NCBI GenBank assembly: GCA_903813345.2
Contig: CAIIXF020000001.1
Coordinates: 11,321,598-11,385,597, forward strand
Length of the DNA: 64,000 bases
Reading direction: 5' to 3'
Origin: Owenia fusiformis
Taxonomy: Eukaryota > Annelida > Polychaeta > Sabellida > Oweniidae
This document shows positions 33,101 to 61,508 of this stretch, piece after piece. The translations under genes were made by a program, and so were the position numbers. Positions within the stretch are counted from its first letter, which is position 1; each line of letters opens with the position of its first letter. A model generated the notes under the pieces. The model was not told the DNA's origin. It did no database searches and saw only the letters and a list, made by a program, of their open reading frames with translations.

Positions 33101-36100
33101 AGACTTGTGACAGTACAAGTAAGTATACGCACATTGAAAACATTGTATCATGTAAATATAACTAAATGAATGCAAACATTTGCTTAAAACATTTAAGACT
33201 AATGAATGTGCAACGCGTTTTCAGTAAATGATAATTATCATTCAAAATACGTTACAGAATGTTCATATTGTGTACACAATTTATATACATTGGGGATTTG
33301 CTTTTAGGGACCTCCAGGACGCATCGGAAGAGCTGGACCTCGTGGAGGTCAAGGAGATAGAGTAAGTAGCTATGTCTTTAAATCATTCAGAATAACACAT
33401 ACATTAAAAAAGTACATGAGCTGTCTAAAAATTAAAAAACGCGCACCTTATCTATTCATCAGATATAACTGATGGTTGCTTGACCAAATTTTCGTTGGCA
33501 CAGTTGTACCCTCCACAATACTCTAGACGATTCAGCGGCAATACATAATATACATGTATATATGAGCTTAATATATATGATTATAAATTATAGGGTGACG
33601 AAGGTAGCGATGGTAACAATGGCGTCCCAGGGCCACCTGGTCCACCAGGTCCTCCAGGAGAGGTAAGCCGACTTTATTGAGCTTTTTTATTTGTTAAATG
33701 AAATATTATAACTTGTTCAATTTGACCAGTCATTGATATTTAATTCAACATCATTTTTGTAAAGTTCTTAATGATATGTGATGTGAAATAAATGTGTATG
33801 TGTAGAGATTTCTTTTAAAAGTATTCTTAAATAATTTATTGAAAATAGCCCCTTGCTGAAATCCTCTATAACTTTAAAAACTCCAAGCTTTAAAAACAGG
33901 AATTAGAAGAGCAAAATGGATACTATTACAAGTGATAAAAACTAAGGTTCTTAAACAGGACATGTGTCTTGATTTTCTGAGGATTTAGGTTAATACTACA
34001 GAATAGATCACAGTATGATTTCAAGATAAAAAAAAGTCAAATAGAGCTGAATTAGTTTATGTTTGTTTTTTAACATTCCATGTGCAGTAATTGTCAAAAA
34101 GTCTACTGATAGATTTCTATTTTAAGTGAAATGTACTTGAAGTATTGTATGTAATTATATACCAGTGTCAAAATTTTACAACAATTAGTTTTGCATCCAA
34201 AATATATGAAAATTATAATTTAAAACAATAAAAAAGTGTTTCATGTGCATTTTAATTATTTTCTGTAGATTTGAATTAGTATTTTAGTGTAAATAGAATG
34301 TCGTATAGAATATTTACTTGTATATTCTATACAGGCACTGTAGTGTATTCTGTTTTCTTAGTTTTATTTATTCAGAAAAGTTAATATCTCCTTGATTCAA
34401 TATTCTGTTACTTTTATTTTTGGTAATGTGTTTTTTTTATTTCTGAGTGGATTCTCCTCAATATTATGTCTATATTTTGTTTGCTTTACATCCTTGGTTG
34501 CTTTGGTTACGTTATAGGCTGCAGCATCTACTTGGGACCAAGTTAGGTCAAACTGGCAGAACTCTGATAAAGCAGGCGGGGCTCAGTTCCCTCCTTCTAT
34601 AGTTGCACAACAGGTACCATTGTCTGTGTGTCAACAAATAATCCCCTAACCCTCCTAAACCCCTAACATCATGTAACACAGTCTAAAACATCGAAATTTC
34701 AGTCTCTCTCTAAGGAGCTGGAATTTGGTTGGATGGTGAAATATGTGGTATTGCATCAGAACTCAAGAGACGAAAACCAGGACAGTACAAGGATCCACTT
34801 AAATATTCATATTAAATGCAAACCATAACTGTTTCACCATTATGGAACTGAAAGCACTTATTTACTACTTATATTCTACAGTATTTTAATGGCATTGGTT
34901 ACAGGCACAGGCAGCATATTGGGATACATTGAGAGAAAGCTGGCAACAAACTGAGAAGGGACCTGGCCCAAACGCGGCCTACCGTGGTCCAGCAGTGATG
35001 CAGCAGGTTGGGAAGTCATATCTTATTAACCTTAATGTTCTCAAGGATATGGATACGTTTCTAAACATGTCTAACATAACACACACTGTTGAAATATTAT
35101 CTAACTCTCTAATGAATAAAACAATTGTTATGTTGATAAAAAACAGGAAAATTAACTTTTACAAAAAGATTACACGTTCATTTTTATCACTTACATATTT
35201 ACTAATGAATCTTAATATAAACTAGAGAACCATCTAAAATAAACTAATGATATTATTGTATTTTCAATGCAACTCTATGTTTAATGTAACTAATGCATTT
35301 GTAGTATTTACCTTTAAACATGCAATAGTCATACTTAAAACAAAACAAAAACATTTTTAGATAATATAAAATATTTAATTGAAATGAATTTCAGCACAAG
35401 TTAGTTCACTATATACAGAAAAATCATTTCTTATATCTAGGTTTGCTTCCATCCCCTCAATTTTTGTATCTTTTATTATAGGGTCCAATCGGTCCAAGAG
35501 GTTCACCAGGACAACCGGGTCCAGCAGTAAGTATTTTAATCAGGGTGATATATTCTGTAAAACATAACGAATCACGACATGAAGAATAAATATTTAGACT
35601 AAAGAATATGATAAAGCTTTTTAAGAGCTGAGTTTCAGGATACATGTTTATAGTAGCGTTGTAGCGTAGTTAATACAAAGTAGTTCTGCTGCCTGGAATA
35701 GCTTTACACTATTAAGGCGTTCTTTAGAATGTCAGACGCAACCTTATAGTTGGAAACGATTAATATTTTACAGACAGATTGTAAAAATAAACGTTCATGA
35801 GAACAATGTTTTATTAACGGTTTAACCTAAGGAACAGGCACATCTCATCTTTGCATGTACAGTCTATTGAATTGTACCTACTCGAGCGCAATAAACAAGA
35901 TGAATTAACAACAGATTCTAGAAATTAAGATAAATGGGACAAAAAAAGAAGTTAGTTTCTTCATAACCAAGAAGCTGGCTAGCTAGCTATACCACATGTA
36001 ACGGAAACTAACGGAAATGCTTGCGGTCTTATGTTACCCATGTCAGCATAATAAACAATTTGTATTCAGACTTTTTTGATGTTCTAATTTCGGACTTATG

Positions 36101-39100
36101 AACTAGATCTAGCTACTCTGGTAAAAAATAAAAATTATTTTTGGTGGATTGAGCGTTGTCTGCGTCAAACATGCTGTTAAGTGAAAACACGTGGGGCACT
36201 ACTATCGACTACCCGAATATCCTAAAATAAATTAGTAAGGCTGGAAATGTTGTTTTTTGTATTGTTGGTAACCGCAGACTCACCACAAGGACATTTTTCT
36301 TATTTATTGTCTCTTGTTTTAAGAAAAAAATTAAAATCAATGTTCTTGACATAAGGGTTTTCCAGAACAGTCTTGTTTCTGCTGGTCGCCGGACAGTTGG
36401 CAAAAACAGGATATAGATTTGACCCACCCGGGTCACCGCTAAAATAATATATTATTGCAAAGAAAATGAAATTATAATGAACCGATTTAGCCTTCTTAAA
36501 TGTTTGAATGTTAATATGTTGACGTTTTGTTATAGGGTCCCCAAGGTTTCCAGGGTATTCGAGGAGAGGCAGGAGAGCCAGGACCACCGGTACGGATGCC
36601 TTTGATAACATGAAATATTTCTATAAAAAGAATTATAATACGAATTATCTACGAAAAGTAATATAATTTTAATATATACTTGATATTCTATTATATAATA
36701 TATACATAAAGCGACATCCATAAATTAGAATAACATTGGTGAGAAATATTTATACAAAATAAACTAATTCTAATCTTTGTATATTTCAGGGTCCATCAGG
36801 TTTGAGAGGACCCCCAGGTCTTTCTGGTCTGCAAGGAAAAGATGTAAGCATTAGTCCTGAAAAGTTTAAAAGTCAACGTGCCCTAGTCATTACTTAGCTT
36901 TTATAGCACAAGTATGCTAAAAAGTATAAACGCGTATTTATAGAAATAGTTTCACACCACTATTTTACCTGATCACATGTCTGAAAAGTCGCAAGATTCA
37001 ACTGCAAACAGTTTATTCTCTTTTCAATCCGTTCTAACTGTATATCCTGGAGAGGCCACCCGCATTCATAAGTTCATAACCTAAACCGTTACTCCATGGA
37101 TAAATCTCAAATTTATTCAATTTTTGTGTGGTTCATGAATAATTCGAGGGGTTGCTAACAGTTCTATAAATCCTGATTAGATGGATTTACTTATGCAAGT
37201 TCAAGTGTGAATCCATTTGGTGTGGATTGGCTAAATCCAAAATGATCTGGGATTTAACTTTCGGCTGTCGGCTATCGGATTAACCTACTATTTTATGACC
37301 AACTGACTTAAATATGAATAGTACCTGCCACTATTCCTTGCATATTTAAATGAGTTTTCCACAAAAAGTAAGTTAATCCGGTAGCCGACAGCCGAAAGTT
37401 GCATTCGCGTATACAAGATAACATTTATTTGGATAATCCCCGGCACAAGGACTATAGTTAAATTCTTCAATGTTCCAGGGTGAAGTTGGACGTGATGGTG
37501 ATCCCGGCTCAAGAGGTCTCCCAGGGTCTCCTGTAAGTTTTACTTATATATCTTGTATTAGAAGGGAAATTGCAGTATTCGTAAATGTTATACTTTTAAA
37601 CAAGTAAAATTGCTAACATGTCATAATGGCTTAGCTATGAATTTTGGTCAATAAATCAAAAATGCTTATCTGTCTTTCCACTCAAGTTCCAAATTGAATT
37701 ACGATTATGTCTGGTTTTTGTACAACCTCCTTGCTCTCTTTCAACATGTCAGCTTTAGTTAGACCAATTACAAATTCCGATTTTGCTTTTCTGTGCTCCT
37801 TTATTGTAGAGTGTGTAGTTTGCAGAACTATGAACGTAATAAACCATTTGTTTTAGGGTCCAAGAGGTCCATCCGGAATGCCAGGTATGCCAGGACCAAA
37901 GGGACACAGGGTAAGTATAATATACCTTGAACAAGCGAATAATGTTCGAATATGATGTGTAACCTGGATAAACGGAGATTTAAGGCATGAGCAAAAAGAT
38001 CAATTCTAATTGGTCCATATTAATAAATGAACGTATAAGCATTCATTTGCCCGATTTGCTGCTTTACCACTATTTTATGTTTTTGGAATTTCATTTTAGG
38101 GTTACCGAGGTCAACCAGGATCTAAGGGAGAACAAGGGCGTGGTGGTGAGAAGGGTCCCGAGGGATCCCCTGGTCCACAAGGTCCTCATGGACCAGTTGT
38201 AAGTACATGTACAGTTTCAATGTTTACTAGGATATAGCATCATGAAGGCTTTAAAACCAACATCAAAATGAAAATAACACAAATGTTCAATGATTGTTTC
38301 TCAAAAAGTTGACAAGCTAAAGCATATATATATGATATTTTATATAGTTATTACTTTATGCAGAAGAAATGCAATCCAATTCAGTAATTATTCTATCTTA
38401 AATAATATCAATTTATAGGGAATCAATTGCATTGTGTTGTTGACTTAATCTTAATGCTTGTATCATCTCATGTTTAGGGTCCAAGAGGTCCAGCTGGTGA
38501 GCGAGGTAGAGATGGTAAACCCGGTCCTGCAGTAAGTATCCCTTCTATACAACAGCATGCAAGTGGACCAACATAGTTGTAATAGTAATAGAATAGAAAA
38601 AATGGTTTGTACTTTCCTAAAAAAATATAATTTAGAAGTCGTCCATTCGTGCAAAATAAAGTAAAATATCACGCTTACTTGTTCAATATTTTAGGGTCTT
38701 AGAGGTGTTGATGGTCTAGGAGGTCCATCTGGTCCACCAGGTCCAATCGGTCAACCAGGTCCACCAGGATTCCCAGGCGCACCAGGAGCCAAAGTAAGGA
38801 TTTGAGTGTGAAAAAATATATATCATTACACTATAAATTAGTCCTGATTATGATAGTATAGTTTTAATGCTGTAATTTACAACACTACTCCAATGTGCCT
38901 CCAAAAGCAGGCTAGCAATAACAAGACATGTGCGGCAAATCTAATCATCATAATTATTATATTATAGGGAGACAGAGGAGCACTAGGTTTGAAGGGTAAT
39001 CATGGTTTACAAGGTCCACGTGGTGAAAATGGAGCTCCAGGAGACGCTGGTCAACCAGGACACCAAGGTCCCCCCGGTAGAGATGGAGTTAATGGAGACA

Positions 39101-42100
39101 AGGGAGACAGAGTAAGTTTTCATAGTATTTATATTAAATGTTTATTTTTATATTTATTTACATGTCAGGTGTGAACCTTGGTGGATGGACAAGATGCGAG
39201 TAGAAATAATTTTGATTTAGCCTACATCATTAAATAAATAAAATTCAGTCAAAGTGATATCATTTTTGAAATACACTTTATAGAAAATATTCTGAACATT
39301 TGGCCTCACTAAAATGTGATACTTCATTGCTCCATATCACGCGAATTCAGTTTTCCGTTTTTTTCATTTTAGGGATCACCCGGTGGCCCAGGAAATCCAG
39401 GTTTCCCAGGACCCCGTGGCCAGAACGGACAAGATGGACAACCAGGCATTCAGGGAATCAAGGGAGACTCTGTAAGTTGATATTCCAAAGTTACTTTGAG
39501 ACGATTTCATAACTATTGCCCTTATTGTCAAAATGTTTGATATTTAATGTTGTTATCTGTAGGGCCAACCTGGACAACAAGGTTACCAAGGAGAAGCTGG
39601 ACCAAAAGGTTCACCTGGTACTTCTGGAGATAGAGGTGCCCCTGGTCTTACCGGACCACCAGGCAAACGTGGATCAAGAGGTGCCACCGGAGCACCAGGA
39701 CCTGCTGGCCTTCAAGGAGAGAGAGGTCCCCCAGGTGGTAGAGGTGCTGCTGGAGCTGATGGTCCTTCTGGTCCACCAGGTCCATCCGGTGAACGAGGAG
39801 AGAGAGGACCCAATGGAGAAGTTGGACCAACTGTAACTATATTATTATTAGTTTTCTATAATAAAAATATAATAATTCTAAAAAACGTTCGGTTGTATAA
39901 TAGAAGTATTTTACATAATACGATCAATTGTTTCTATTTCAGGGCTCACCTGGTCCCCGTGGTTTGAACGGTCCACCAGGTCCAAGAGTAAGTATAATCT
40001 TATAAACATATTATAAAGTAATCATAATCATAAATAACTTTTTTAATATTCCTGTAAGCTGTGATTCATTTGGATATAACGTTTTTGTAATTTCCTTTTT
40101 AAAGTATTTAGAATCTTAGACATAACATGTCATGTGTATTACTATGTATGTTTCTTTTAAAGGTCTATGGGTTCTTGTTGCTATTGTTTCTTTAAGTTTT
40201 GTATTCTTGCAACTATTGTAGGGTATTGATGGCCGAGCAGGATCAGATGGTAAACCAGGACCCCCTGGTCCACAGGTAGACAAATGGCAACGATATAACA
40301 CTGTTTGCTTCCCAACATTGCAACATGTGTTGAGACAAGTTTCAGACATGACGTGTAACACGTCAAAGTGAAAAGGAAACGGTTGATCGTGTTACACATG
40401 TGTTGACAGATTAAGAAACTTTTCTCCATACAGTTGCTGTTGTTTCATGAGTTCATTCATATAATGGTAATCACATACTAACTTATAGGGAACTAATGGA
40501 TCACCTGGTAAAGATGGCTTACCCGGTCCAGCTGGATTCCCAGTAAGTATGAGCTATACTGATCCTTCTAATTAGAGACGATATCATTTCTAATCAAACG
40601 ACGCTCTCAAATGTTAACATAACATGAGCAATTCATTATCATCATTATTGCATAAAATTGTATTAATATCATTTCACATCAGAATAGTACTATAGCTTTA
40701 AAAGTCAAAAAAAGCTTAAGATTATATTTCCGACTCAATTTGGTATTTGGGCACGAATATATATTTACCTATACAATAACATAGGGTTTTGAAACCTATA
40801 GTACATTAAATTATTATCAAACGCTACGTATTACATTGCATCCAATATTATATGTATTTCGCCTTCTTCACAGGTATATTTATCATTACCTAATTGAGAA
40901 TATACGCGTACTAAAACGTTGAATGCCTATTTTCATTTATTAATTATAAACTTTTTGTTTTATCTTTTTTCATATTAATGTTATTTATTATTTCATATTT
41001 TTTAAATTATATTTTATGATAAAGTTATATTTTGTTCGTTAGACGTAAATATTTTTATCTTTATGAATTATTACAATTTTTATTTTACCTATATTCTATT
41101 CTTTCTGTTGAAATAATTTAATAATAGATATATATAAGTACTTTCATTTTTGGTATTTCAGTGACAAAACATATAATTTTGTTAATGATATTGTTATAGA
41201 TGTACTAATTTTATCATAGCTGTCGTTAAACGTCTCATTTTCTACATTTAACCCAGTGCTATTTACAATAATAATTGCTTTGGTATGTTTCAATGAATCA
41301 AATATTTTAGGGTGAAGCTGGTCAAGACGGCAAACCAGGTGAACAAGGACCACAAGGTATCCAAGGTCTTCCAGGTATGCAGGGAACGCCCGGCCAGAGA
41401 GGATTCCCAGTGAGTTCATATAATTAGTATCAAAATATATCATATAAAGCAATAGCGATGATTCGATTACTGACTAGCATTATAATTTACAGGTTTGATA
41501 ATATTCTATATTTTATTTAAGTAAGATCTATGTTATAAGTGATATCACTTAATTCAAGATGAATAAAAACAGAAGGAGCTCACGTGTCTCGAACTGAAGA
41601 CCTCGTGGTTATGACACAGCGCCTAGTTTGGCTTGTTTCTTATTGATGTGATGTATTCTAGGGAGAGGCTGGAAAAGATGGAAAACCTGGAGAGACTGGA
41701 CCATCAGGACCACAAGGGGACCGAGGCAAACCAGGCAACGATGGTAAACCAGGACCACAAGGAGCTCCCGTAAGTTACACTAAGTAACTATATAAATGTG
41801 ATAATATTTAGGATTTTTGTTCCTCAGATTTCATAATCAATAATATGTTTAATATCGTGAATTCCAATTCAATTCTGATTCATGAATGCTTTTCACATGA
41901 TATAAGCTTTGATTTCATTATTTGATTAATTTCACTTTAATGCTTTCTTTAGCAATATGATTATACTACAATACAATCACCAGGCCATGTAAATGATATC
42001 CATGATGTCTATTTTGTATAGGGAGAGGCCGGTGATAGAGGTCAGCCAGGTAATCCAGGACCACCAGGATTCCAGGTATGTTCATATAAACAAATATAAA

Positions 42101-45100
42101 AATGTATATACAGTAAGGGTATTTGACACAACAGCAATTATAGTTTCATGTCATTTGGGCATATAGGTCCGTGTTTCTGGTATAATTTGATTATCTAAAA
42201 ATATTTTTATGTTACATTGTATATTTCTCATATCTATGAATCATGCTACTTAATATGATGATATGTTTATTTCAGCATCATTGAGCGGCACAATGTCGAA
42301 TGATCAACAACGCTTTGTGCCCCTTCTCTGCGAAACTTCGTTTATTTTTAGTACAATACAGTACAACAGTTGACTTTGTTTTCAGCGATTTTGTAATATC
42401 TATACATTTGACATTAATTAAAGTTACATAATAAGAATAAATTCAAAAAATAACTTTAAAGTATACATACATTTTATTTAAATGATACAAGTTTTGTTAT
42501 ATGGTATTTCGGGCGGCTATTGTAGGGACTCCCCGGAGAGAACGGCAAAGCAGGAGAGCCAGGCAAGCCAGGAGAAGTCGGACCTCCTGGACCACAAGGG
42601 TCTAGGGGTGATGTTGGTCCACCGGTGAGTCAGGATGTGATCACAACACATCAAGGAAAGGACTAACCAAATAACTGCGCAACATTACATAACCACTGGA
42701 CATAACTCCATACCTAACACTCAGCTTTAATTGTTTTCAGTACTAAGGATGGCAACCATGGAGTAACATTAACTATAATGTCATCAACTAATCATCGCAT
42801 AATAATGTATCACAATTCAGGGTTTACCTGGTGAAGCAGGCACAGCTGGTGAACCCGGCAAAAATGGAGAAATTGGACCTCCTGGCCCAGCCGGGTCTCG
42901 TGGTGGCGTTGGCTTGCCGGTATGTGAGTGCCTGCTGCAAACGCACTTGGGCTCGGACTGTATGTCTGTTTTGTATGTTCAGTGTCGTTGCATCATACAT
43001 TGTATTGTCGTCTCTGTGTGCTTGAAACATCAGCCCTTGCATGTTAGGCAACAGTATGATTATTAGTGACGGAAGGTCGTCGACTTCTGCAAATGATGTC
43101 TCAACAGGTGCATTAAAGAGCATGTAAGCATAAAGAAAATGTTCACTATGTGCATATTTAGGGTCTTCCTGGAGAAGTAGGACAACCAGGAACTCCTGGA
43201 AAGGATGGTGATGCTGGGGCAGCTGGTCCCCAAGGTGCACGTGGTGCGATTGGATTACCCGTGAGTGACCGCGATTTCCACACGTAGATTTGAAAGCTAG
43301 TCCATTCAATACCCTTTGTATTTTAGACTCCGTAGTACTTTTAAGTTTCATTATTATCCTTTCGATCCTAGCTTACGAGATTACCTTTTCCTTGCTTCTA
43401 ACCCTTGTAGGCACCAACATTATTACATCTTATACATCAACGAAATCAGAATTGACATCAGAGGAAAATTAGAAAAACATTCCTCTTCATTGCTTATATG
43501 TTTCTACTGTTTTATTGGTACTATACCTAGTACAAGTGTACAACACTCACAAATGAACTTTGGAGGAACAGCTAAATAAACAAACGGATTTTGGAAAAAA
43601 CAATTGGGCGAGTTGTACTCGTATTTTTACTAATTATGATTTTCTGTCTGGCATTTGAACTTTTTGTCTTTCGTTGTCTGGGATCAAAAGGTTCCAGTGC
43701 CTTTGCGGGTTGAGTTAACCTTCAGAGAGCTTTCCACCATTTCAATATCTCTTCTCAGCATCTCTTGGTGGTGGTTTACATCTTGAGATATCCTGAAACT
43801 GCGGTCCTATTCCACATACTATTTATGTTTCAATTGTTTACCTTTGTATATTTTCCTTTTATATTTTGCTGTCATTCAATTGCATGTTTATTTGCATTCA
43901 GTATTTCTTTTTTGAATTTGTTAGTTCGTTCGTAATTGTCATGCATTCTTATTAATATTATTGCATGTATGTCAAGTCCTTTGTTTCACATTAACATGTT
44001 CAACATCTAAACAAAATGCCAGTATTTGATATTCTTAACTGAATTAACCATAATTTTCTTAATTCAATATATGGAAGCTATTTAGTAAGATGCTTACTAA
44101 AAATACTGATTTATAAAAAGATGAATATAGCTGCATGAGTGAGGGATATTATTTCTAATTGTTGTTTATTATGTTTTCAAAATGGAAAACGAGCAGAGGT
44201 AAGTGCACCCATATGGTACATTGATACAACTTTTATCAAATTTGATTCTGGAATTACTCTACGGTAACCTTTTTATAGTCCAAGTTGTACCTAAATAGAT
44301 GGTGTTTATAAGCTGATCCCCTTTAATGTAATGTAAACAATCACGTCGAAATATATTATCACAAATAAATGTAATAGAGCAAATTAAACTAAAGATGTAG
44401 AACAAAGTGTAACATATAACTTTGTGAAAGTACAAAGACTTCCTGTGGTAACAAAAGAACACGTTAACTTATAGGGAGAGCGAGGTCAACCAGGAGAACG
44501 TGGCGAGGCTGGAAAAACTGGAGCACCAGGAGATCGTGGACCAGGTGGACCCTCAGGAAAAGATGGTGAACGAGTGAGTTAATTAAAAAGTAGTTCATCG
44601 TCAAAAAATGAATCAAATGACATTATTAGATACTATATACATGTATGAATTTGAAGAAAAGTAGTCTACTTGGGATTTACTAAACAATTTAAGTTACATA
44701 AGTTAAAGCTAATATGTGGCCCCATCCCGCTTGGTTCTGTTATTGTTTTCTTGGTTGACTCTGATCGTTTCTTCATAAACATTTATGCTAAACATGTTTG
44801 TTATCTAATACAGGGACTGCCTGGAGAACGAGGAGAGCCAGGACCCCAGGGAACTGCAGGTTTAGTGGTGAGATAATATTCTTTTAGCTTAGCATTCAAA
44901 TAATATCAATGATTTAAAACTAAAAGTACCCTAAACTACAAGTTGGAATACTCATATAATCAAAGTACATGATTTATCATAAACTTACTGAAAATTAAAA
45001 ATCAAATCTCACTGGAGTATCAGACATTGAAAAGAACAAAAAAACTGATTGACATCAACTAGTGACAGAGTGTAGTGTAGTTAAGTGACGATACGTGTTT

Positions 45101-48100
45101 CTGAAATTCCAGGGTCTGCCAGGTCAACGAGGAGAGCCAGGAACATCAGGACCAAAGGGAGAACGAGTAAGTTAGGCTTGTCTGGATTTAAGTACTAGTA
45201 TTTACAGTAGAGTAATATGCTTTAAAATGTCAATTGGTAGGTTAAAGTCCTTCACAGTATGTAGTACGTTTGAAAAAAACAATTACAATTTACAATTACA
45301 GTAATAACCTTCATATTTGTAATTACTTTTACAATAGAAATTCACTGTCACAGGTATGTATGCGGTGTTCGCAGGGGTTGGGTGCGTTGGTTGCGAACAC
45401 ACCCCCTTCTTGACCAAATGCCCAAAAATTTCGTTATTCAATACTCAGAGGAAATAACCATGTGCTCCAGAGAAAATGGTGGAGAAGCTAGGCTTCAAGT
45501 GCAAGCTATAATGTTTTTTAGACACACCCCTTGAAAAAATCCCAGGGACGCCCCTGGTATACATGTAAACTTGTACTTAAGTAAAATTGTTTATCTAGAT
45601 GGCATTATTAATTGTGTTCTTTAATTGATTTACTTTTCCTAAATGTTATATAGATGATTTCTTTGTTTTAGGGTAACAGTGGAAATTCTGGACCACCAGG
45701 ACAACAGGGTAAACAGGGTCTCCCCGTAAGTATGCAGTATTCAATAGACTCATTGAATATTAATGTTGATTATAATCAACCTCGTACATACATAGTAAGA
45801 AATCAGAAAGGTATAATTTTTTCATCAATTATTCCTACATTATATTTGCGTTGCAAACTGTTAATAGGGTGAAGCTGGAACCCCTGGTCCAAGTGGGCCC
45901 CAAGGGTTAGCTGCTCCAAAAGGTGAAAATGGACAACCAGGTCCAGCTGGGCCTAGAGGAGCGACGGGTAAATCAGGAAACAGAGGGGCTCCAGGAACAC
46001 CAGGACCAGTTGGTCTCCCAGGAACTCCAGGACTTGCCGGTAACCCCGGTCCTAAAGGTGACACTGGCGCTGCAGGTCCCCGAGTAAGTTCTAATTTTTT
46101 TCATAAGCATTGAAAATATTAACATTGAATTTTATATTATAGGGTGAACAAGGTCCTAAAGGTGCAGTAGGTCTCCCAGGTAAAGATGCACCAAAAGGTG
46201 AGGATGGCGCTGCAGGGCCACCAGGTCCAAGAGGTGCCCCAGGTAAAACTGGCAACAGAGGGGCTCAAGGGTCACCAGGATCTCAAGGACTGCCCGGTAC
46301 CCCTGGACTTCCAGGCCAGGCTGGGGCAAAGGGAGACGGGGGAGCAGCAGGTCCACGTGTGAGTAAGGCGTGATCAACTGAGCCTGATGACCACTCACAT
46401 GTAACAAATGATGTTATAATTCAACTCACCTATAACTTTTTTCTCTTATAGGTCTAACTATAACACATGGTATGATACTAGCATACAAATGTACCAAGGA
46501 TGTGCAAAAGGATGTGTCCATGCAGAAAAATAATATACATTATGATAACATAGAATATAACTTGTAATGAAAGCTAAGCCTACTATTCTAATCTCGAGAT
46601 ATGCATATAATAGATGTTTATTTTAATAAACCTAATTGAAACATTATGAAAATGGTTTGACTCAACCAGTTTGCTTGTTGTTTGGATGATATTATCATTT
46701 AAAATGGGTTTGTTTTGTTTGATTTAAACCTGCATGTTTATTATTTACTCAGTTTTTAGGGTGTCCACTATCTTTAGCCTAATACTATCATGTAACCCTG
46801 TATGTATCTTGATTTGTTTGAGTTATCTATCTTTTTATTAATTCTGATTGTGTTATATTACTTATAAATCATTTAGGTTGTAACTTTATTTTACCCGAAT
46901 ATTATCTGTTATTCCTTTTGAAACAATTGCTTTCAAATGGTATTAGTTTTGCCCCAAAATTATTTAAGTTGATATCAATAGAATCTCTTTTTTATTTTGC
47001 CTTTCAAGTATTCTCGACCCTTGTGATTTTCATTTCGATTAACCTGAGTATATTATATTTATGTTTTGTTTTGCATTCTGTCCTCTATCCTTTAGATATT
47101 CTGTCGCTTAATTTGACCCTCTTTTCAATGTCCAAAATCAATAGTATAGCCTCTAACTACTCCATAATGCAATGTGTTTGATATTTGATGAATAGGGTCC
47201 CAATGGTGCTATTGGTGTCCCAGGTCCCCAAGGAGAAGCAGGTCGAGCTGTAAGTATAACTTTTACACATACTGTACATCTAAATTTTACAATCTGACAT
47301 ATTTTTGTTTATAGTATATTTTAAAATTCTTTGTTAATATAATTGTGTATAGGCTCTGTAACTTGTTATATCAACTGATTCAATGATTCTCCTAAGAAAA
47401 TAAATGCTTCTGACATGAATGATTCTTAAAATAGGGAAAAGACGGTATCCCAGGTAGACAAGGAAAGAGAGGAGATCCAGGTGTTCCCGGAGACGCAGGA
47501 CCACCAGGTGCCCCAGGACGACCAGGTCAATCAGGATCTACTGGCCAACCTGGAAGCCCAGGTACCCCAGGAGCAGCAGGCAAAGAAGGAATCAAGGTAT
47601 CAATTTTATTGAATACTGGATCTGGGCGCTAAGACTGTTATCTTAATCAGAAATATGTTGCTCTCTTATTTATTTATTTTTAGTTCATTTGTTCATTCTT
47701 CATACATAACATCTTGTTCTCTTATTTAGAGTTGCAGGAAGACTTGATTGGTTCATTACATAGTGTACCAATATATTCGATAGGAATACTATAAGTATTC
47801 TATACTAGAGTATTAGGTTTACTCAATTCAATGTTTACAATTTAATGACATGTTACTTATTCATCTCTTCTATTACTTAGGGAAGCCGTGGTGAGTCTGG
47901 ACGACCAGGTAAGGATGGTATCAACGGAAACACAGGACCTCAGGGACCCCCAGGAGAGAAGGGCGGTAATGGTGAAGATGGCAAGGATGTGAGTGTTGCT
48001 CAGTTGCTGGAACATGAGAACTTAATACAATATGTCCCATTGTTTAGTTATATAATAGATCTTATTGCTAAATTAATGAAATTATCCAATGCAAATAAGC

Positions 48101-51100
48101 AATTTATTCTATTCAAAATTGCAGTATATCATAAGAGTATATTCTAGGTATTCTTTTAGTTTTGCATAGTGCTGATATTAAACGAAACTTATAATGAGTA
48201 ACCAATTTATAATAAGATGCATACCTTGCCATTTGTGCTATGATAGGGTTTACCAGGTCCCCAAGGTCCACCAGGCCCACAGGGAGAGCGTGGTCTCGTA
48301 GGCTTACCCGGTCTGAGAGGAGAGCGTGGTCCAACTGGTGCTGGAGGACCAAGAGTAAGTTGGATAGTTTGCCTAATATTAGCACTTACTAATACTTCTA
48401 CATGTGTGTTATATTTAGGGTGCACCCGGTGTTCAGGGACCTCCCGGTCAAGCGGGTAACCGTGGATCACCAGGAATGCCAGGTATGGCTGGGGAGAGAG
48501 GTCCTACGGGTCCCGCCGGAGGACGTGTGAGTTACATTCACCAGACTAAGCATGTGCCTTGCCACACGCTTACGATCACCTTGACGTGGTCGAACTTGCA
48601 TTTCATGTCCAAAGAAGTTGCTGCTCCAGTAGACTCCGATAGGAATACTTTTTTTGTAGCTTTCCCTACCAATTTCGCCTTATCCGATGAAGGTTTTTGT
48701 TGCATTCCTTCAGACATATCAGTTATCTCAAGCATATACGTTTGTTGGTTTGGCAGAAAGGAGAAGGTGACACCCGGAGTTTCAAGTAAACGTTTATTGT
48801 GAAAATAAATATATTAAAGTTAAGTTTTCTCAAAAGATGCAGACTCAACAACCATTCGTTCAAATCATATTCTGATTCATAGACGCTGCATGTCTTCTTC
48901 CTCCTTGGCCCCTTTGAACGCCAATCTCCATAGATCACATTCCCAAACCCATATGCGTGCATGTTTAGGTACTTCCTCGCAAAGCTACATATACTATATG
49001 AATTCCCATGAGGCGTCTCTTTGTATCTTTGAAATGCTGTTGAAACATAGATGATGGTGCGCAACAATGAATTTAGGAAACAAGTTGGGCATGTGTTTGA
49101 AAGAAGAAGGGAGGCGGTTTATGATCGATGAAGTTGTGTAGGGTCTGTATCTTTAAAAAGACGAAACTTCGGGTGAGACGGGCTGCCCATGTAGTAGTTT
49201 AGATTGCTATGGTATTACAAACACAGTCTGCATGTGTTTAAGGTGTGCCCTATGGCCAGCTGAGTAATTATTTTAGTTGTACATATATGAGCTATTATAC
49301 CTCATGAATGTTTGCCAAATGGACGTGATATTTCTGTTGGTGTGTGTATGAGACTAGCTTCTATAGTTTTATATTCAGTTTTACCTTGTATTGTATAAAT
49401 GTGTGTTGCATTTTGGAATGCGATGTCAATCCAACTGCTGGAATCAAAGCACCAACTATTCAATTGTCTTCTCAAGATGTACTTGGTTTATTATATCGTC
49501 TCAGACTCCCGAGAGCCAAATCAATTACTATATATTAACAAACTTTTATTTTGCATCATGGAATAAGGTGTAATTCATTAAAGATGCAGCCCCTATCATT
49601 AAACTCTTTACGCATTCATCACATTTCTACTTCATTTGCACATTAAATGCACTGGAGCATATCCACTACTGTTTCGCAACGTATTCATCGCATGAACATT
49701 GAATATGACGTTTTTAATCAATACGTAGAATATGATATATTTTAAAGCATAGGTGAAGGTGTTTGGTCAAAAGTTTTCTTTAGAAATGAATTATACTGGG
49801 TCTGCATCTTTAGAGGATAAGATATGGATAATGTAGAATTTCTTTTTACTTAAATAACACTGATTTTTTAATGTATTAATTTAGAGATATATGTGTATTA
49901 AAATTATGTAAGTGATGATCATAAACCATACAATTGTAAATATGTGTATGATAATGACTCGCGTATGCAAATTAGTTAAACCGTATGCTCAGCCAATCAG
50001 GATCAAGATAAACATCTAAGCTTGTATTCGCGAATGCAAATAGCGGCTGTTGGCCACCGGATTAATCTACTATTTTATGACCAATTTATTTAAATATGAA
50101 TAGGACTTGCCACTATTCCATTCATATTTAAATGAGTTTGTCATAAAATATTAGGTTAATCTGGTAGCCGACAGCCGAAAGTTGCATTCGCAAATGCAAG
50201 CTAAATGTTCTAACTGTTTTCGACAAATGGGCTACTTAACATATTTTTGATTTTTTAGTCAAACAATTTGTGAATGGTTCTAATTTTGATTTTGATTTTA
50301 TAACAGATTTCCTGAGAAAAAGTAACAAAATATTTTTGAAACTGGATTAAAATTACCTTTGTCATTTTAGGGTGAATCAGGATCAGCCGGAAAAGATGGA
50401 CGGCCAGGTGACAATGGACGACCAGGACCACAAGGCAACCCTGGACCACCAGGTCTCACTGGAGAACAAGGACACGAAGTAAGTTTATTTAGAAGTAAGA
50501 CAGATATACTGTAGTTGTATTGTAGCTGTACTGTAGTTAGTACTATAGAATGCCATTTCATGTTTTCTTTTTAATAGCAATACACACAGACTCAGTTATA
50601 TCACGTTTTATATTTGCTTAGGGTACACCCGGTAAAGATGGTGCCCCTGGTCTTCAAGGACGCCCAGGAGACAAAGGACCACCCGGCTCTGCAGGCAACC
50701 CAGGACCACAAGGTCTCCCAGGACCTCAGGGACCCCCAGGCGCAACCGGATCTGCTGGTTCTCCAGGAGCCCGTGGTGAGAACGGAGAACGTGGTCCAGC
50801 TGGTGTCCGAGGACCTCCAGGTGCTAGAGGCTCAGCAGGATCTCCTGGTGTACAGGGAGAGAAGGGTCAGCGTGGAGATAGAGGAAACAAGGGAGATAAG
50901 GGTTGGCAGGGTCTTCCAGGTCTCCAGGGTGTGACTGGTAACCCAGGTCCCCAGGGAGAGGATGGTCAACCAGGTCCACCTGGTCCAGCTGGTTCAAGAG
51001 TATGTAAAACTCTCCAAATTCATTTGATAATATAAACTTGTGATGATAATACAATCTGAAATAATATTAAATTCTTCCGTTTTTTTGTACATTTATATAT

Positions 51101-54100
51101 ATAAATCATTAATGCGTTGTAGGGTCAACAAGGTAATCGTGGTCAACCAGGTCAAGCAGGATCTCCCGGACAACCAGGTTCCATTGGACCCCCTGGTCCC
51201 CGTGGTCCCGAGGGTAGCGACGGGCGCAATGGGCCACCAGGACCTCCAGGTCCACCAGGTCCCCCAGGTCCTCCAGGTGGTGATGCTGGATGGGGTGGAA
51301 ACATTTGGTCAAGACCAGGACCAAAAGGACCCGACCCACTTTTGGTATGTCTTCACTTGTATGTTTCTCCTCTCCACCATGCTGAAATTGATAAACTTAA
51401 TAAAAACCATACAAGTTTGAATATATAAGCGCAAATGCCAAAGGGAACGGACCAAAAACTGTAAAGAAAGCTAGTAAAACTGGGGCGTTATTTGATGATT
51501 TATTTATAGGGTGACGAAGCACCAAAGGATGTCTTTGAAGCCATGAATCGTCTTGAAAAGGCCATTGAAACAATTAGGAAACCCGATGGTACACAAAAAG
51601 CTCCAGCAAGAACCTGCAAAGATCTCGCCAACTCCAATCCCGAATTTGAAGATGGTAAGTATTACTAACCAATTATGTCCAAATGTAGTGCCTATCATCA
51701 TGTTCATTGATGATATTCCAATGCATGTAATTGTCCTCTAAGTTGGATTTGATATGTTTTCATCATATATATTCTGTTGATTGTAGGTATGTACTGGATT
51801 GATCCTAACCAGGGCAGCATTGCTGATGCCATCCAAGTGTGGTGTAATATTGGCGATTATGAGACTTGCATTCTGCCAAAACCAGAAGAGGTAAAAACTT
51901 TGCTACATTAAAATGAATATTTCATCATTTATTTTAATACTTTTGTCTTGTAATATATTCGCGATTCATTTTACTCCTAGCAACACTAGTAGATGGGTTA
52001 ACTACATTTGGACTTCATTGTATGATGCAAATGTCCCATTTGGCATGGAAGTTCCTTTGTGCAATAGAAATAAATTTATCCAAAGACACAAGCTAGATGG
52101 CGCTTTATATTGGAAATATACACATTTTTTAAAATGGCCGCCAAAAATTCATCAGAGACAATATATTTGATTCTGTGCATGCTACAAGTATAAGATTGGT
52201 GTCAAAAAATACAGCAATGTAGTCGTAGAATCTATTTTATTAGATCTTGAGTCTTGAAAATTAAGAACTTCCACTTTATATTCAAAATATATGCATTTTT
52301 CAAAATGGCTGCCAGAAATATAACAAAAAAGATATCTTCGCTTCTAAGCATGCTACAATGATAAGAGTGGTGTCTAAGTATACATTAATATTGGGTTGTA
52401 GAATCCATTTAAATAGGTCTTTCTTAATAAGACTTTTCACTTTATAGGAAATTATGTATTTTTAAAAATGGCCACCAGAAATATAACAATGATGATATCC
52501 TCACATCAGTGCATGCTACACTGATCCGATTGGTGTCAAAATTTTATATTTATGGGGTAGGAGAATCAATTTTATTAAGTCTTGTCAATCATCGGATACT
52601 TCTTCTGCAAACTATATCAACTGCGGCGTCCCTAAGGGATCCATCCTAGGTCCACTTTTATTTTTGATTTACATAAATGACTTACCCGATGATCTTTTTG
52701 GAAAGGCATTTATCTACGCTGATGAAACATCACTATATTACCCCTTCGATCCATCCGATCCTGACATGCATACTATCAATCATGATCTTAATATCATAAC
52801 TAACTGGTCTAAAAAATAGAAAGACAGAGGAAGTTATCTTTCAAAGCCAGCGCTGTGTATTTGCTACTCCGCCACCTTTAGCCAAACTTGGAAATGGGGA
52901 AATTAAAAGGAATAATCTTCATAAGCATCTAGGGTATACTTTTGATTATCTTCTTTCTAACAAAAATCATATATATGACATTGTCAAGAGAGTACAAAAA
53001 CTGCTTAATCCATTGAAGGCACTTACATCAAAAATTAACTCGAAACATTTGGAGACAATGTACAACTCATTCATAAGGCCTCATTTTGATTACGCAGACA
53101 TTCTTTATCATTCATCAACTCAAGTACTGATCAATATCCCTAGCAATTTACATTATCAGGCTGCATTATTGTGTTCTGGGTGTCTCCATGGCTCTGATAC
53201 AGGTAAAGTTATGGGGGTCTTAAACTGGTGCACACTATCCCAAAGGAGGGAACAACACATTCTTAACTTCATGTACAAAGTAATCAGAAACCAGGTACCT
53301 TCCTATGTATCTTCAATATTTGAAGAATTCAAAAATCCAGCTACCAGAAGAACAAGCAATACAGAGGTATACCAAATTCCTATAAGGTCAACTGCCCAAT
53401 TTATTAAATCCCCTATTCCTAATGCAATATCACTGTGAAACAAATTACCTTAACCTCTTTTAGAGTATGCCTTAAAATTTTCCCTACGATCATTCAAAAA
53501 AGAAAGTAATAAACACTATCTGCCCAAGAGAATAATGAGTTCAACGTCCCTGATTAATTTAACAGGGTCTCAAGAAATCACTCTCAACTGAGCTCGTGTT
53601 GACTTATTTTTGAAAGCAAGACTTTTTGCACACCAATTTACATTTATAGACTCGGCTCATTGTTCTTGCGGCAAACCTGAAACACTAAAACATCTATTTT
53701 TCAAGTGTCCTCTATGCCAAATTAATAGGCATGCCCTGATGGAAGAGGTCAACAAAATCATTTTTATAATAAGATCAGCCAACTAACAAACATGGATGAT
53801 AAACTTAATTTTCATTTATATGGTGACGAGACATTATCCTTAGCAGAACTAAGTAGACTTCTTATCATCGTCAGCAATTTTCTCCATGACAACAAGACAT
53901 AGCAAAGAGGTCTCATCTAAGCCCTGGAGAACTCATAATATATATCTTGTTTTTTACACATCTACTTGGCACAAACCGCTCTGGTCCCTGGGATACCCTT
54001 CATGCACAGTCGTCCTCAAACAACTAAATACTATTCTTAATTTTTTACATGTAAGTGATGGCCAACCTATAATGCCAATATGGCGATTGGTGGCCGAAAA

Positions 54101-57100
54101 TGTATTGACTTTACTTCAATAAAGTTTATACTATAAAAAAATTATAGTTTTCACTTTATATTGGAAATATATGCAGCTGAAAATATAACAAAGATTGTAT
54201 ATTTGCTAACAAAGATTGTACCTTTGCTAACAAAGATTGTATCTTTGCTAATAAAGATTGTATCTTTGCTTACAAAAATTGTATATTTGCTAAAAGTTTC
54301 TTTACTTCTGGGCATAATATTTCATAAAATTGGCTTCAAAATCTACATTTTTTTGGGAATGTAAAATCTATTTAATTACTCAGATGCAAGTAGGTAGTTA
54401 CCATTTTCCCCACCAGGTGGATAATTTGGGTGAAATAACGTTGCAGGGTATTACAAAGTTCCCTTAAACTTGAATATTCTTAATTTTTAGTGGTTCGCAT
54501 TTCATATTACTCTTTTGTATCTGATAGTTGTACAAATTAAAATATCTCCAGTTAAAGAAAATATTATCTGCACAACAAAAGATATTTCACTTTTTGTGTT
54601 TTATAACATGGACTATGGGGAATCTCCCTGACCTAAATTTCACATTTTCGAAGAAAATTCTATTTTAAAGTTGATGGACTCATTTCAAAACCACATTTCT
54701 TGATGTATTTTTTCATGACGATTCCAAATTCAACATCAGTTAAGTTAGACTGAATTTTGAATTTTAATGACAAAAATTGTTACTACTCGCATCTAGCAAA
54801 TTGGATTATGAGTCTTAAAAATAATAGTTTTCGCCTTAACACAGCAAATGTGTATTTATCTTTCACATGTTCTTTTTACTCAAATTCACCAGAAAGACCA
54901 GTGTCTCTTTAAAAACTTGCAATAAACATGTATCTGCAATGATAGTGCAACTTTAGTTGTTGCAATGCAACATACATAAGAAAGAAATGTGATAGATACA
55001 TGTAGAAACCACGCAGGACAGACATACATATGTACCTACATAGTTAGAAAGGGCCAGAAACCTTCTGGCGAGAGAAAATCTTGAAGATCGGAATAGATTT
55101 CAAGGGCTGCATATTATGACAGTATTGCAGAACCCTCTTCATCTCCTCTGACCAAATCATGGACGATGTCTCTGTTTACCGAGTCTTCCACTAATCCAAC
55201 CAACAAACTTTTAAGCTTGTTGTTGATTGGCAACCATTTTGAAAAATACATGTATGTATACACATACAGCACTGAATATTGTCATATTGGGAAAAATATT
55301 CTTATTTTCTCATTTGAACAATTAAGAGATTGAGATTTTAAGATTTTAAACGGTAATATGCCTCACCATGAGTACTTCCTGGCCATAGTTTCCGTCATCG
55401 CAAATTGATATTCAAAATTACACTTTCAAACTATTCTACTTTTGAAGAAGTTTAAGAGCCCTTGTTAGATATACTTTTTTGTAATATTTTCCACACCATT
55501 GAAAAAAAGGCGTTATTTTCAATAAAAAGTGAAAATGTTTGTTAACTAATAGACATACAGTACAATATCAGAATTTCCGCTGATTTAAACATTTTGGTGA
55601 CCATTTAGTCAATGAATGCTAAAAATTATATTTAGACAATAAAAAAAATTGAGATCTAACTTAATATAATGTAGCCATACCTTGACGACATATCTAGTAA
55701 GTAATAGCTAATCAACTCCTTCTCTGGGACATTTCGAATTTTCTGAGGCATTAATCATAAAATTAACACAATCTTCAATTTAATTGAGTACATATGGCCG
55801 GCCATACTTTGAAGGAATCTGACAATAATTGCAAAATCATACATTCTGTAAGACAGACGAAGAACTGACAGACTGGCGGACGGAGGGCTTCACTATATTC
55901 CCACTGAACTTTCTTCGTTGGGAAAATAAAGACTATAAACCTTATTAAATGAGTTCTACCACCCATTAATGTATACTTGGACATCAATCTTACTATTGTA
56001 GCATGCATACACGTGAAGATATCATCTTTGTTACATCTCTGGCAGTCATTTTGAAAAAGGCATAATTTTTTGATATAAAGAGGAAGTTCCTAATTTTCAA
56101 GACTCAAACCCATACTAAATTTATTCTTCACCCACAAATGTATATTTAGGCACCAATCGTATCATTATAGTATGCATAGAAGAAAATATATTGTCTCCGT
56201 TGTATTTTTGGTGGCCATGTTGAAAAATTTGAATATTTCCAATATAAAGCACCATCTGGCGTGTGTCTTTGGATAAATTTGATTCTATGGTCCTAAGGTA
56301 CTCTCGCGTCAAAGGAAACATTTGCATCATAGATTGAAGTCAAGACCCCCTAAAATGCAGTTAACCCATCTACTACACCGGAACTTATATTGATACATTC
56401 TATGTTCAGTTGCGAAAGACCCGATTATAACTTATAGCTAAATTTATGACTTTTCCATTCATGAAACGGGTACTTTTGGTATTTTTCTAATATTCCAATC
56501 ATATTAAGTATTCTTATTTAAAAGGTATTGAATTTTTATTGGCCTTTTAGTTTATTATGGTCATTTTTCATAGTCGTTTTCAAACAATGGCAATTGTTCT
56601 TTCTCAGGTACACCGTGGAACATGGTACGAAGGTCCAAGCCGACATGTTTGGTTCGGAGAAGAGATGAACGATGGATTTACAGTAAGTTCGATCTTTCGG
56701 CAACGATATAAAGTATATGTCATTTAAACAAAATTGAATAACTTTAAAAGAATACACAGCTATAGAGACACTTCTATAAAGGAGTCATCTAAATGTCTCA
56801 CTAAATCAAAATTTTATTCATCGTAAGTACAAATATGATATTTGAAGTAAAGCCTTGTAGTGCTACTTTGACAAACCACCAATGATGCAAACAATCCTCA
56901 AGTCAGTTATTTTGTTTTTTCAGTTCTCTTATAAAACAGACAGGGTCCAACTGACCTTCCTGCAAATTCTCAGTGAAACTGCCTACCAGAATATCACATA
57001 CGTATGTAAGAACTCAGTTGCCTACCTTGATGCTTCCACTGGAGAGTATGACAAATCACTTAAGCTTATGACATATAACGATCTAGAGTTGGTCGGAACA

Positions 57101-59718: not shown

Positions 59719-61508
59719 TCATTCAGAATCCGTGTCAGATTCTGTTTTTGATCTTGTAGAAACGCACAGATTCCTTCTGAGGAACGACCTAATTGCGTTC
59801 CGCTTGGTTTTTTCCTCAAGTGACACTTTTTCGGTTATCTCGACTGTTTCTGTTCCCCCAATTTGGCCGCCTTGTGCTTCCATGTCGGCAATATCATTTT
59901 CACTGTTGGCATACCTATCTGCATAAGTGTCAATATAAGTATCAGTTTCGTACGCATCGTCAATGTTATGAAAATTCTCAACCTCGGAGTCGTTTTCATT
60001 ATCTTCGTCGTCTTCATTATTCTCTTTATCATCGTCTTCGTCATCGTCTTCATTATTCTCTTCATCATGGCCTTTGTCATCGTCTTCATTATTCGCTTCA
60101 TCATCGTCTTCGTCATCGTCTTCATTATTCTCTTCATCATCGTTTTCGTCATCGTCTTCATTATTCTCTTCATCATCGTATTCGTCATCGTCTTCATTAT
60201 TCATTTTATCATCATCTTCGTCATCGTCTTCAATATTCTCTTCATCATCGTATTCGTCATCGTCTTCATTATTCGCTTCATCATCGTCTTCGTCGTCGTC
60301 TTCATTTATCTCTTCATCATCGTCTTCGTCATCGTCTTCATTATTTTTGTCATCATCGTCTTCGTCATCGTCTTCATTATTCTCTTCATCATCGTATTCG
60401 TCATCGTATTCATTATTCATTTTATCATCGTTTTCGTCATCGTCTTCATTATTCTCTTCATCATCGTCTTCGTCATCGTTTTCATTATTCTCTTCATTGT
60501 TGTTAAGGTTCATCCTGAGTTTAATATAGATAAGTCGTGTCACTGCGTATTTACAGAAGGATTTGTAGATTTTATCGAAATCTGTCAAATTTGGGCGATA
60601 CTTTAATTCCAGCTGTAAAAATACATTGTGCTATATGTATTTTGCATACAACGATCACATTTTCAATTTTCTGAAAAGTGCTGGTCATTTTAAAAGCAAT
60701 AAAACGTACTTTGACTATTCGTATTTACGATTATTTGATTAACAATTCAACCTGAACGTACAACTTTGTTCCGGAAGTGCGAGATGAAGGCATCTATTGT
60801 GACACCATCACAATATGTAGCAGAATGTTCGTTTGTATTCATATCTAGGGATGATGGTCTTCCCCAATTTCTAGGCACTACCAAAGTACCGCCGGAAACA
60901 AACATTTTGTATATGTCGTTATGGTTGGAGGGAATGGTCGCAGTGCTGGATGGTTCGGACTCATGCCTTCTTTTAAAAGCTCTATTAAAAATTGCATAAG
61001 AAGTATTACCAGATCGTCTTGCAATGTCCGATTGGGTCGTAGAAATAGCGCCATGTCCCATGTATCTACGGAACAAACTAGATAAATTTGCCCGATGATT
61101 TGCCACGTCTCTTGATGTTTCGGGGCTATACGTTCCTTCTCTGCGATTTCCGTAGCTTTGTGGAGCTCGATATGGAACATTCGTAAATCTTGATACGTCA
61201 ATTGCGTCTATATTCAACTCTGCTGATCCGGCTGACGAGTCTTCTACCTCTTCGCTTGATATAGAAGTGGTATCTTCATTATCATAATGAGGCAAATTGT
61301 AGTTAAACTCGCCCTCTTCAATTGGCATTGAGGGGGTATCTTCATTATCATAATGAGGCAAATTGTAGTTTAACTCGGAGGCTGAAAATGTGGCGCCTCG
61401 TCCTCTTGGGTTGTACTCTTCGGATTGGTCTGGAAAATTGTAAATACCTAAATTCAAGGTCCATTTTCTCAAATTGAATCTTTTGATCGTTAAAGCTCTT
61501 AAACACAT
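59719..61508 (-). CDS. Unknown 546-residue protein with 12-residue acidic repeat
   Basis: Two exons: 61508-60762 (249 codons) and 60612-59719 (297 codons plus stop), joined in phase 0 across a 149-base intron with GTACGT donor and gtatttttacag acceptor. The first exon has a tandem 22-residue repeat built on NYNLPHYDNEDT and a basic region (SLFRRYMGHG, FNRAFKRRH). The second continues LELKYRPNLTDFDKIYKSF into about 13 units of NNEDDDEDDDEE, then a mixed tail ending SDTDSE. No signal peptide or transmembrane segment is seen, so it is probably intracellular. If the intron is retained, translation ends four codons on, giving a 253-residue form without the acidic part. I do not recognise the family. 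A TATA box and poly(A) signals support a real gene. Confidence 0.65.
59990..60515. repeat. 36-base coding minisatellite
   Basis: About 13 degenerate units of 36 bases (tcatcgtcttcgtcatcgtc-type on the plus strand) encode the NNEDDDEDDDEE repeat on the minus strand. Unit length is a multiple of three throughout, so the frame is kept. Confidence 0.9.

Follow-up and report, generated by a model that had tools for sequence, protein, structure and literature searches.

The window analysed here is a 64,000-nucleotide stretch of the Owenia fusiformis genome (contig CAIIXF020000001.1, positions 11,321,598 to 11,385,597, forward strand). It contains a fibrillar collagen gene on the plus strand, with 34 main-helix exons and the COLFI exons of the C-propeptide.

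35482..51284, plus strand: main triple-helix region of 34 exons (402 triplets with every exon included)
51510..57457, plus strand: fibrillar collagen C-propeptide, four exons, COLFI positions 3-82 and 116-233 of 233

The COLFI 83-115 piece has a candidate open frame at 56551-56727, which by its appearance is likely to be the right one, and short helix exons are found upstream of the main helix, including one at 33594-33662. All 34 main-helix exons have an AG acceptor followed by a whole Gly codon; 33 of them end at a GT donor, while the last one continues into the C-telopeptide. Each helix exon is open, is in phase 0 and has a length divisible by 9 bp. The gene encodes the C-terminal COLFI propeptide of fibrillar collagens and has the fibrillar plan of 54- and 45-bp exons with whole Gly codons at exon starts. 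The 54/45 exon plan of fibrillar collagens is described in a section of PMC2852846. Gly occupies the first position in 400 of the 402 main-helix triplets and both exceptions are Ala residues of one pair of exons (cluster C), meaning that the repeat of Gly at every third residue is broken once per chain if these exons are used exclusively and twice if all exons are joined. A fragment of a reverse transcriptase (RVT_1, 52496-52816, plus strand), whose 29.6 bits equal the curated cut-off, occupies part of the long intron that separates C-propeptide exons. A 303-aa open frame (59719-60630, minus strand), made up mostly of Asp, Glu and Asn repeats, follows downstream of the gene.

The two exons that contain the Ala residues are direct neighbours.

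45868..46083, plus strand: cluster C copy 1, helix exon of 216 bp, sixth triplet APK with Ala encoded by GCT
46143..46358, plus strand: cluster C copy 2, helix exon of 216 bp, sixth triplet APK with Ala encoded by GCA
46084..46142, plus strand: intron between the C copies, 59 nt, the shortest of 36 measured in the gene

An earlier sequence-only reading had described this pair as two duplicated helix exons sharing a Gly-to-Ala break, and the description is accurate: each copy encodes 72 residues (24 triplets), 48 of the 72 are identical, the intervening intron is 59 nt long, and Ala-Pro-Lys is the sixth triplet in both, in the contexts GLAAPKGEN and GKDAPKGED. The exon junctions are phase-0 GT-AG sites. 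Only 21 of the 48 identical residues use the same codon and the longest identical stretch is 13 nt. Because the two Ala codons differ (GCT and GCA) and identical stretches do not exceed 13 nt, a single sequencing error or recent gene conversion is unlikely. At the X and Y positions of the triplets the copies share 24 of 48 residues; none of 662 comparisons with other helix stretches exceeds 14 of 48. Synonymous divergence is high (dS 1.29, dN 0.27, dN/dS approximately 0.2; NG86), which suggests that the copies are old and constrained. Assembly or haplotype duplication was also considered as the source of the copies and was ruled out by dS values above 1. The Ala substitution is most likely older than the duplication, as had been proposed, and was retained in both copies despite strong divergence at silent sites (dS of approximately 1.3); this retention concerns a single residue and is hence a weak test of selection on the Ala itself. 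No further close copy of the C exons was found in the genome among the 150 of 1188 first-look candidates that were scored, where the other listed matches were at most 60% identical. A wider contig scan with C copy 2 returned at least five confirmed loci, all in bacterial records. Elsewhere in the genome an erythrocruorin-linker domain was detected (3 matches), a domain that according to PMC6400237 is not confined to annelids; a search for mollusc haemocyanin gave no match, and neither did its control.

The C pair is not the only set of tandem look-alikes in the main helix.

42526..42624, plus strand: cluster A copy 1, 99 bp
42821..42919, plus strand: cluster A copy 2, 99 bp
43162..43260, plus strand: cluster A copy 3, 99 bp
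48247..48354, plus strand: cluster D copy 1, 108 bp, slot of human alpha1(I) triplets 256-267
48419..48526, plus strand: cluster D copy 2, 108 bp, same slot (human alpha1(I) triplets 256-267)
48355..48418, plus strand: intron between the D copies, 64 nt, second shortest of the 36 measured
40222..40275, plus strand: cluster E exon, 54 bp; either E exon is surplus to a 338-triplet helix
40489..40542, plus strand: cluster E exon, 54 bp, alternative candidate for the same slot as 40222

Ranking of 107 same-length exon pairs by identity at X and Y positions placed tandem neighbours from A, C, D and B (44814/45113) in all six top positions, with a distant 5-triplet pair close behind in seventh place (0.40 versus 0.41). 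We compared each pair against other helix stretches. The A1-A2 pair was matched by none of 718 comparisons and the C pair by none of 662, while the D pair was equalled once in 734, A2-A3 once in 718, A1-A3 three times in 718, the B pair 11 times in 770 and the E pair (40222/40489) 174 times in 770. This comparison identifies A, C and D as firm duplicates, leaves B doubtful and gives no similarity support to E. The A, C and D copies are thus homologous tandem exons of equal length and phase; the E exons are equal in length and their similarity is not significant. Another two neighbours of 11 and 12 triplets (41311-41409 and 41662-41760, plus strand) have 19 of 33 residues in common over their first 11 triplets, 11 of these being Gly, and are perhaps an older duplication; the best 338-triplet sets include both of them.

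The length of the encoded helix depends on how the copies are used. All exons joined give 402 triplets and one exon per slot gives 338 (1014 residues), and a main helix of about 1014 residues is obtained only in the latter case. We examined register by ungapped scoring against human alpha1(I) and rat alpha2(I), with any of the 34 exons free to be skipped. The human alpha1(I) sequence used here matches rat 3hqv_A over 1014 residues with no gap, which validates it. Lengths of 326, 332, 337, 338, 339 and 344 triplets were compared, using scores that are not adjusted for length: at 338 triplets the score was 860 against human alpha1(I) and 566 against rat alpha2(I), and the five other listed lengths reached at most 693 and 454, respectively. 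The top-scoring set leaves out two A exons, a single exon each of C and D, and either 40222 or 40489; both B exons stay. There are near-ties: a set that leaves out the exon at 50371 and retains both D copies reaches 858 versus 860 against alpha1(I), and sets skipping 39943, 47881 or 42022 score 562-564 versus 566 against rat alpha2(I). When gaps were allowed freely in triplet alignments of the all-exon chain, they fell across many exons at each of three gap costs, and the clusters could not be located in this way. A phmmer search of a composite sequence against PDB gave a placement out of register.

Exon boundaries offered a second comparison, for which we used a grid of vertebrate exon lengths and the boundaries of a second fibrillar collagen gene in the same genome.

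C6:21225357-21246431 (L018-L020): second fibrillar collagen gene of the genome, 343 helix triplets

This paralogue has no Gly break in its 343 triplets and has one 90-bp helix exon, and no tandem exon pairs were noticed in it by eye. With E, A, C and D reduced to one copy each, 27 of 28 internal exon boundaries of the window gene fall on the vertebrate and paralogue grid, compared with 25 of 28 when B is reduced in place of E. The grid test is blind to same-length neighbours, and 30 of 30 listed sets tie at 27/28. The B pair, although its exons resemble each other (X/Y identity 0.42), was rejected as an exclusive cluster by the register and grid tests: the 24 models using B rank 221-562 of 10230 in the register test, and both tests indicate that the surplus exon is 40222 or 40489 and not a B exon. 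The C6 paralogue, with 343 triplets and not 338, was of no help as a register reference, scoring below zero, ungapped, against all 24 B-type models.

The D-period of 234 residues was assessed with a charge and hydrophobic spacing score, which makes use of no other sequence. Human alpha1(I) peaks at 234 residues with a joint score of 2.03. The 24 one-copy models score 1.87-2.41 at this spacing, and in all nine of those listed the best spacing is 234 or 235. When the clusters were toggled in all 16 combinations, the fully reduced chain scored highest (2.25) and ranked 234 first of 110 spacings; 234 was also the top spacing in two partial reductions (1.54), and the score at 234 was 1.83-1.86 when a B exon was removed instead of an E exon. 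Of 1500 same-length subsets sampled from 10230, 40 reach the score of the lowest one-copy model and 16 reach the model mean. The 234-residue stagger is present in the one-copy models and absent from the all-exon chain.

The introns that separate the C copies and the D copies are unusually short. The other 34 introns measured in the gene are at least 91 nt long, those of the C6 paralogue at least 83 nt (n = 38), and those of five other collagen loci in the genome at least 84 nt (n = 64; paired by an automatic splice-site rule that may miss very short exons), so that all 136 other collagen introns measured in the genome are at least 83 nt. The 59-nt intron contains four branch-like motifs, among them TTAAC with its A at nt 39, and the 64-nt intron contains three, among them CTAAT with its A at nt 38. 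A branch-like A located 38-39 nt from the 5' splice site would leave little room for the spliceosome. In C and D, steric hindrance probably blocks double inclusion, as the spliceosome would be unable to use introns of 59 and 64 nt. The A introns (196 and 242 nt) and the E intron (213 nt) are of ordinary length, and these clusters would need a mechanism other than short introns. A search of 15 intron pairs for RNA pairing structures turned up no convincing case (z-scores of -2.3 to 2.3, 40 shuffles per pair, with long introns represented by their first 700 bases). Double inclusion would keep the reading frame, given the phase and the lengths of the helix exons.

From the gene sequence we infer, with considerable confidence, that the C exons are alternatives, most likely mutually exclusive ones, for a single 24-triplet slot of the fibrillar helix, at helix triplets 195-218 in the numbering of this chain. 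Each finished chain would have a 338-triplet (1014-residue) helix with exactly one Ala-for-Gly substitution, at residue 598. The three A copies, the two D copies and the one surplus 54-bp exon would follow the same one-per-slot rule, and if they behave like C then 24 helix variants of equal length and equal D-stagger are possible.

The sequence-only reading implied two breaks in one chain, which corresponds to a gene in which all copies are constitutive and the helix is elongated to 1206 residues (402 triplets) and contains two Ala breaks at a distance of 72 residues. Every exon is open and all junctions are good phase-0 GT-AG sites, in keeping with such a chain, but it would be 64 triplets too long for ungapped alignment to the mammalian chains, only 16 of its 33 internal boundaries fall on the exon grid, its joint score at 234 residues is 0.71 (rank 39 of 110 spacings), meaning that the period is lost, and it requires splicing of the 59- and 64-nt introns when no other measured collagen intron is as short. 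Length, register, exon grid and D-period all favour either C exon alone, and we regard the constitutive use of both as very unlikely.

We consider it very unlikely that one copy of each pair is decaying or rarely used and that the chain is effectively fixed. Copy 1 is closer to the human chain than its twin in both C (71 versus 39) and D (40 versus 24), which fits this reading. Against it, 115 of the 117 triplets in the exons of A, C, D and E still begin with Gly, the shared Ala accounting for both exceptions, and the A, C and D pairs have dN/dS of approximately 0.1-0.3, with dS estimates of approximately 1.3 or more that are near saturation. Least probable of all is that the copies are independent cassettes (either, both or none included) yielding helices of differing length: the frame permits this and the A and E introns are ordinary, but chains of unequal length would not be expected to make an in-register trimer or hold the 234-residue stagger, and the short C and D introns speak against including both copies.

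Under mutually exclusive use of the C exons, the Ala is residue 598 of 1014 by computed position. The window helix is without the first human triplet and has one extra triplet (GGD) at its end, which places the Ala at the equivalent of human triplet 201; the corresponding triplets are GDK in human alpha1(I) and GDR in rat alpha2(I). Gly substitutions like this elsewhere in the helix cause disease, and in peptides a Gly-to-Ala change leads to local loosening of the triple helix. By analogy, the likely effect of the Ala is a local loosening that the fibril tolerates, which would be an old feature inherited by both C copies. A tolerated local kink is enough to account for the Ala, and the results lend no support to the cleavable point that had also been suggested. 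The accompanying claim that fibrillar helices normally tolerate no missing Gly is too strong, as passages of PMC2852846 report two successive Gly substitutions and one imperfection in types XXIV and XXVII and numerous exceptions in an ascidian chain. A Gly break carried by both alternative copies would be a natural test of Ala tolerance at one helix site.

Duplication also extends to the N-telopeptide, where tandem exons share 9 of 21 aligned residues.

34518..34613, plus strand: first N-telopeptide exon, encoding 32 aa with Lys in DKAGG
34905..35006, plus strand: second N-telopeptide exon, encoding 34 aa with Lys in EKGPG

These are possibly a further exclusive pair, offering a candidate choice of cross-link site. 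The D slot (human triplets 256-267) includes Gly775-Ile776, which we take to be the vertebrate collagenase site. KGP is the usual context of the telopeptide Lys before vertebrates and KAG is among the vertebrate variants, according to a portion of PMC5120351. Given the position of the D slot at the collagenase site and the KAG and KGP contexts of the telopeptide Lys, exon swaps could adjust proteolysis and cross-linking. We tentatively suggest that 24 variants (48 with the telopeptide pair), generated by length-locked swaps, tune stability, proteolysis and cross-linking tissue by tissue while length, D-period and the Ala hinge are kept; this is plausible, at slightly less than even odds. To our knowledge, fibrillar collagen helices are regarded as rods of fixed length whose main helix is not varied by splicing. 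If the proposal is true, splicing diversity is compatible with D-periodic assembly, at a length of exactly 1014 residues.

The closest known counterparts of the window gene are fibrillar collagens of the clade A type, a likeness based on features and not on a tree. It shares with mammalian alpha1(I) and alpha2(I) the COLFI C-propeptide, the short helix exon before the telopeptide, a 338-triplet main helix, ungapped register, the 54/45-bp exon plan and the D-period, and differs from them in having duplicated alternative helix exons. Both muscle collagens of abalone were reportedly described in 1999 as having a 1014-residue helix in which Gly598 is replaced by Ala, and the computed position of the Ala in the one-copy chain of the window gene is exactly 598. 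If so, the Ala would go far back among lophotrochozoans, and what sets the window gene apart would be the duplication alone. The Haliotis discus muscle collagens have the accessions BAA75668 and BAA75669 in a portion of PMC5120351. Searches of the open-licence PMC literature for Ala breaks in abalone or vent-worm collagens found none.

Alternative exon pairs exist in other fibrillar collagen genes. COL11A1 exons 6A/6B are such a pair in a vertebrate gene, and these exons and COL5A1 64A/64B lie in propeptides. The COL5A1 64A/64B exons are presented as an alternative pair in a section of PMC13077938. As in COL5A1 and COL11A1, the alternative exons of the window gene are neighbours, but they sit in the main triple helix instead. 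Among the titles and abstract openings listed by searches of the open-licence PMC literature, none described exclusive exons within a fibrillar helix, and the word 'collagen' is absent from the main text of a survey of 236 human exon-swap events. The window gene has in common with these human swaps that homologous neighbouring exons are exchanged with important residues kept, and differs from them in that several swaps within one helix would have to hold an exact length.
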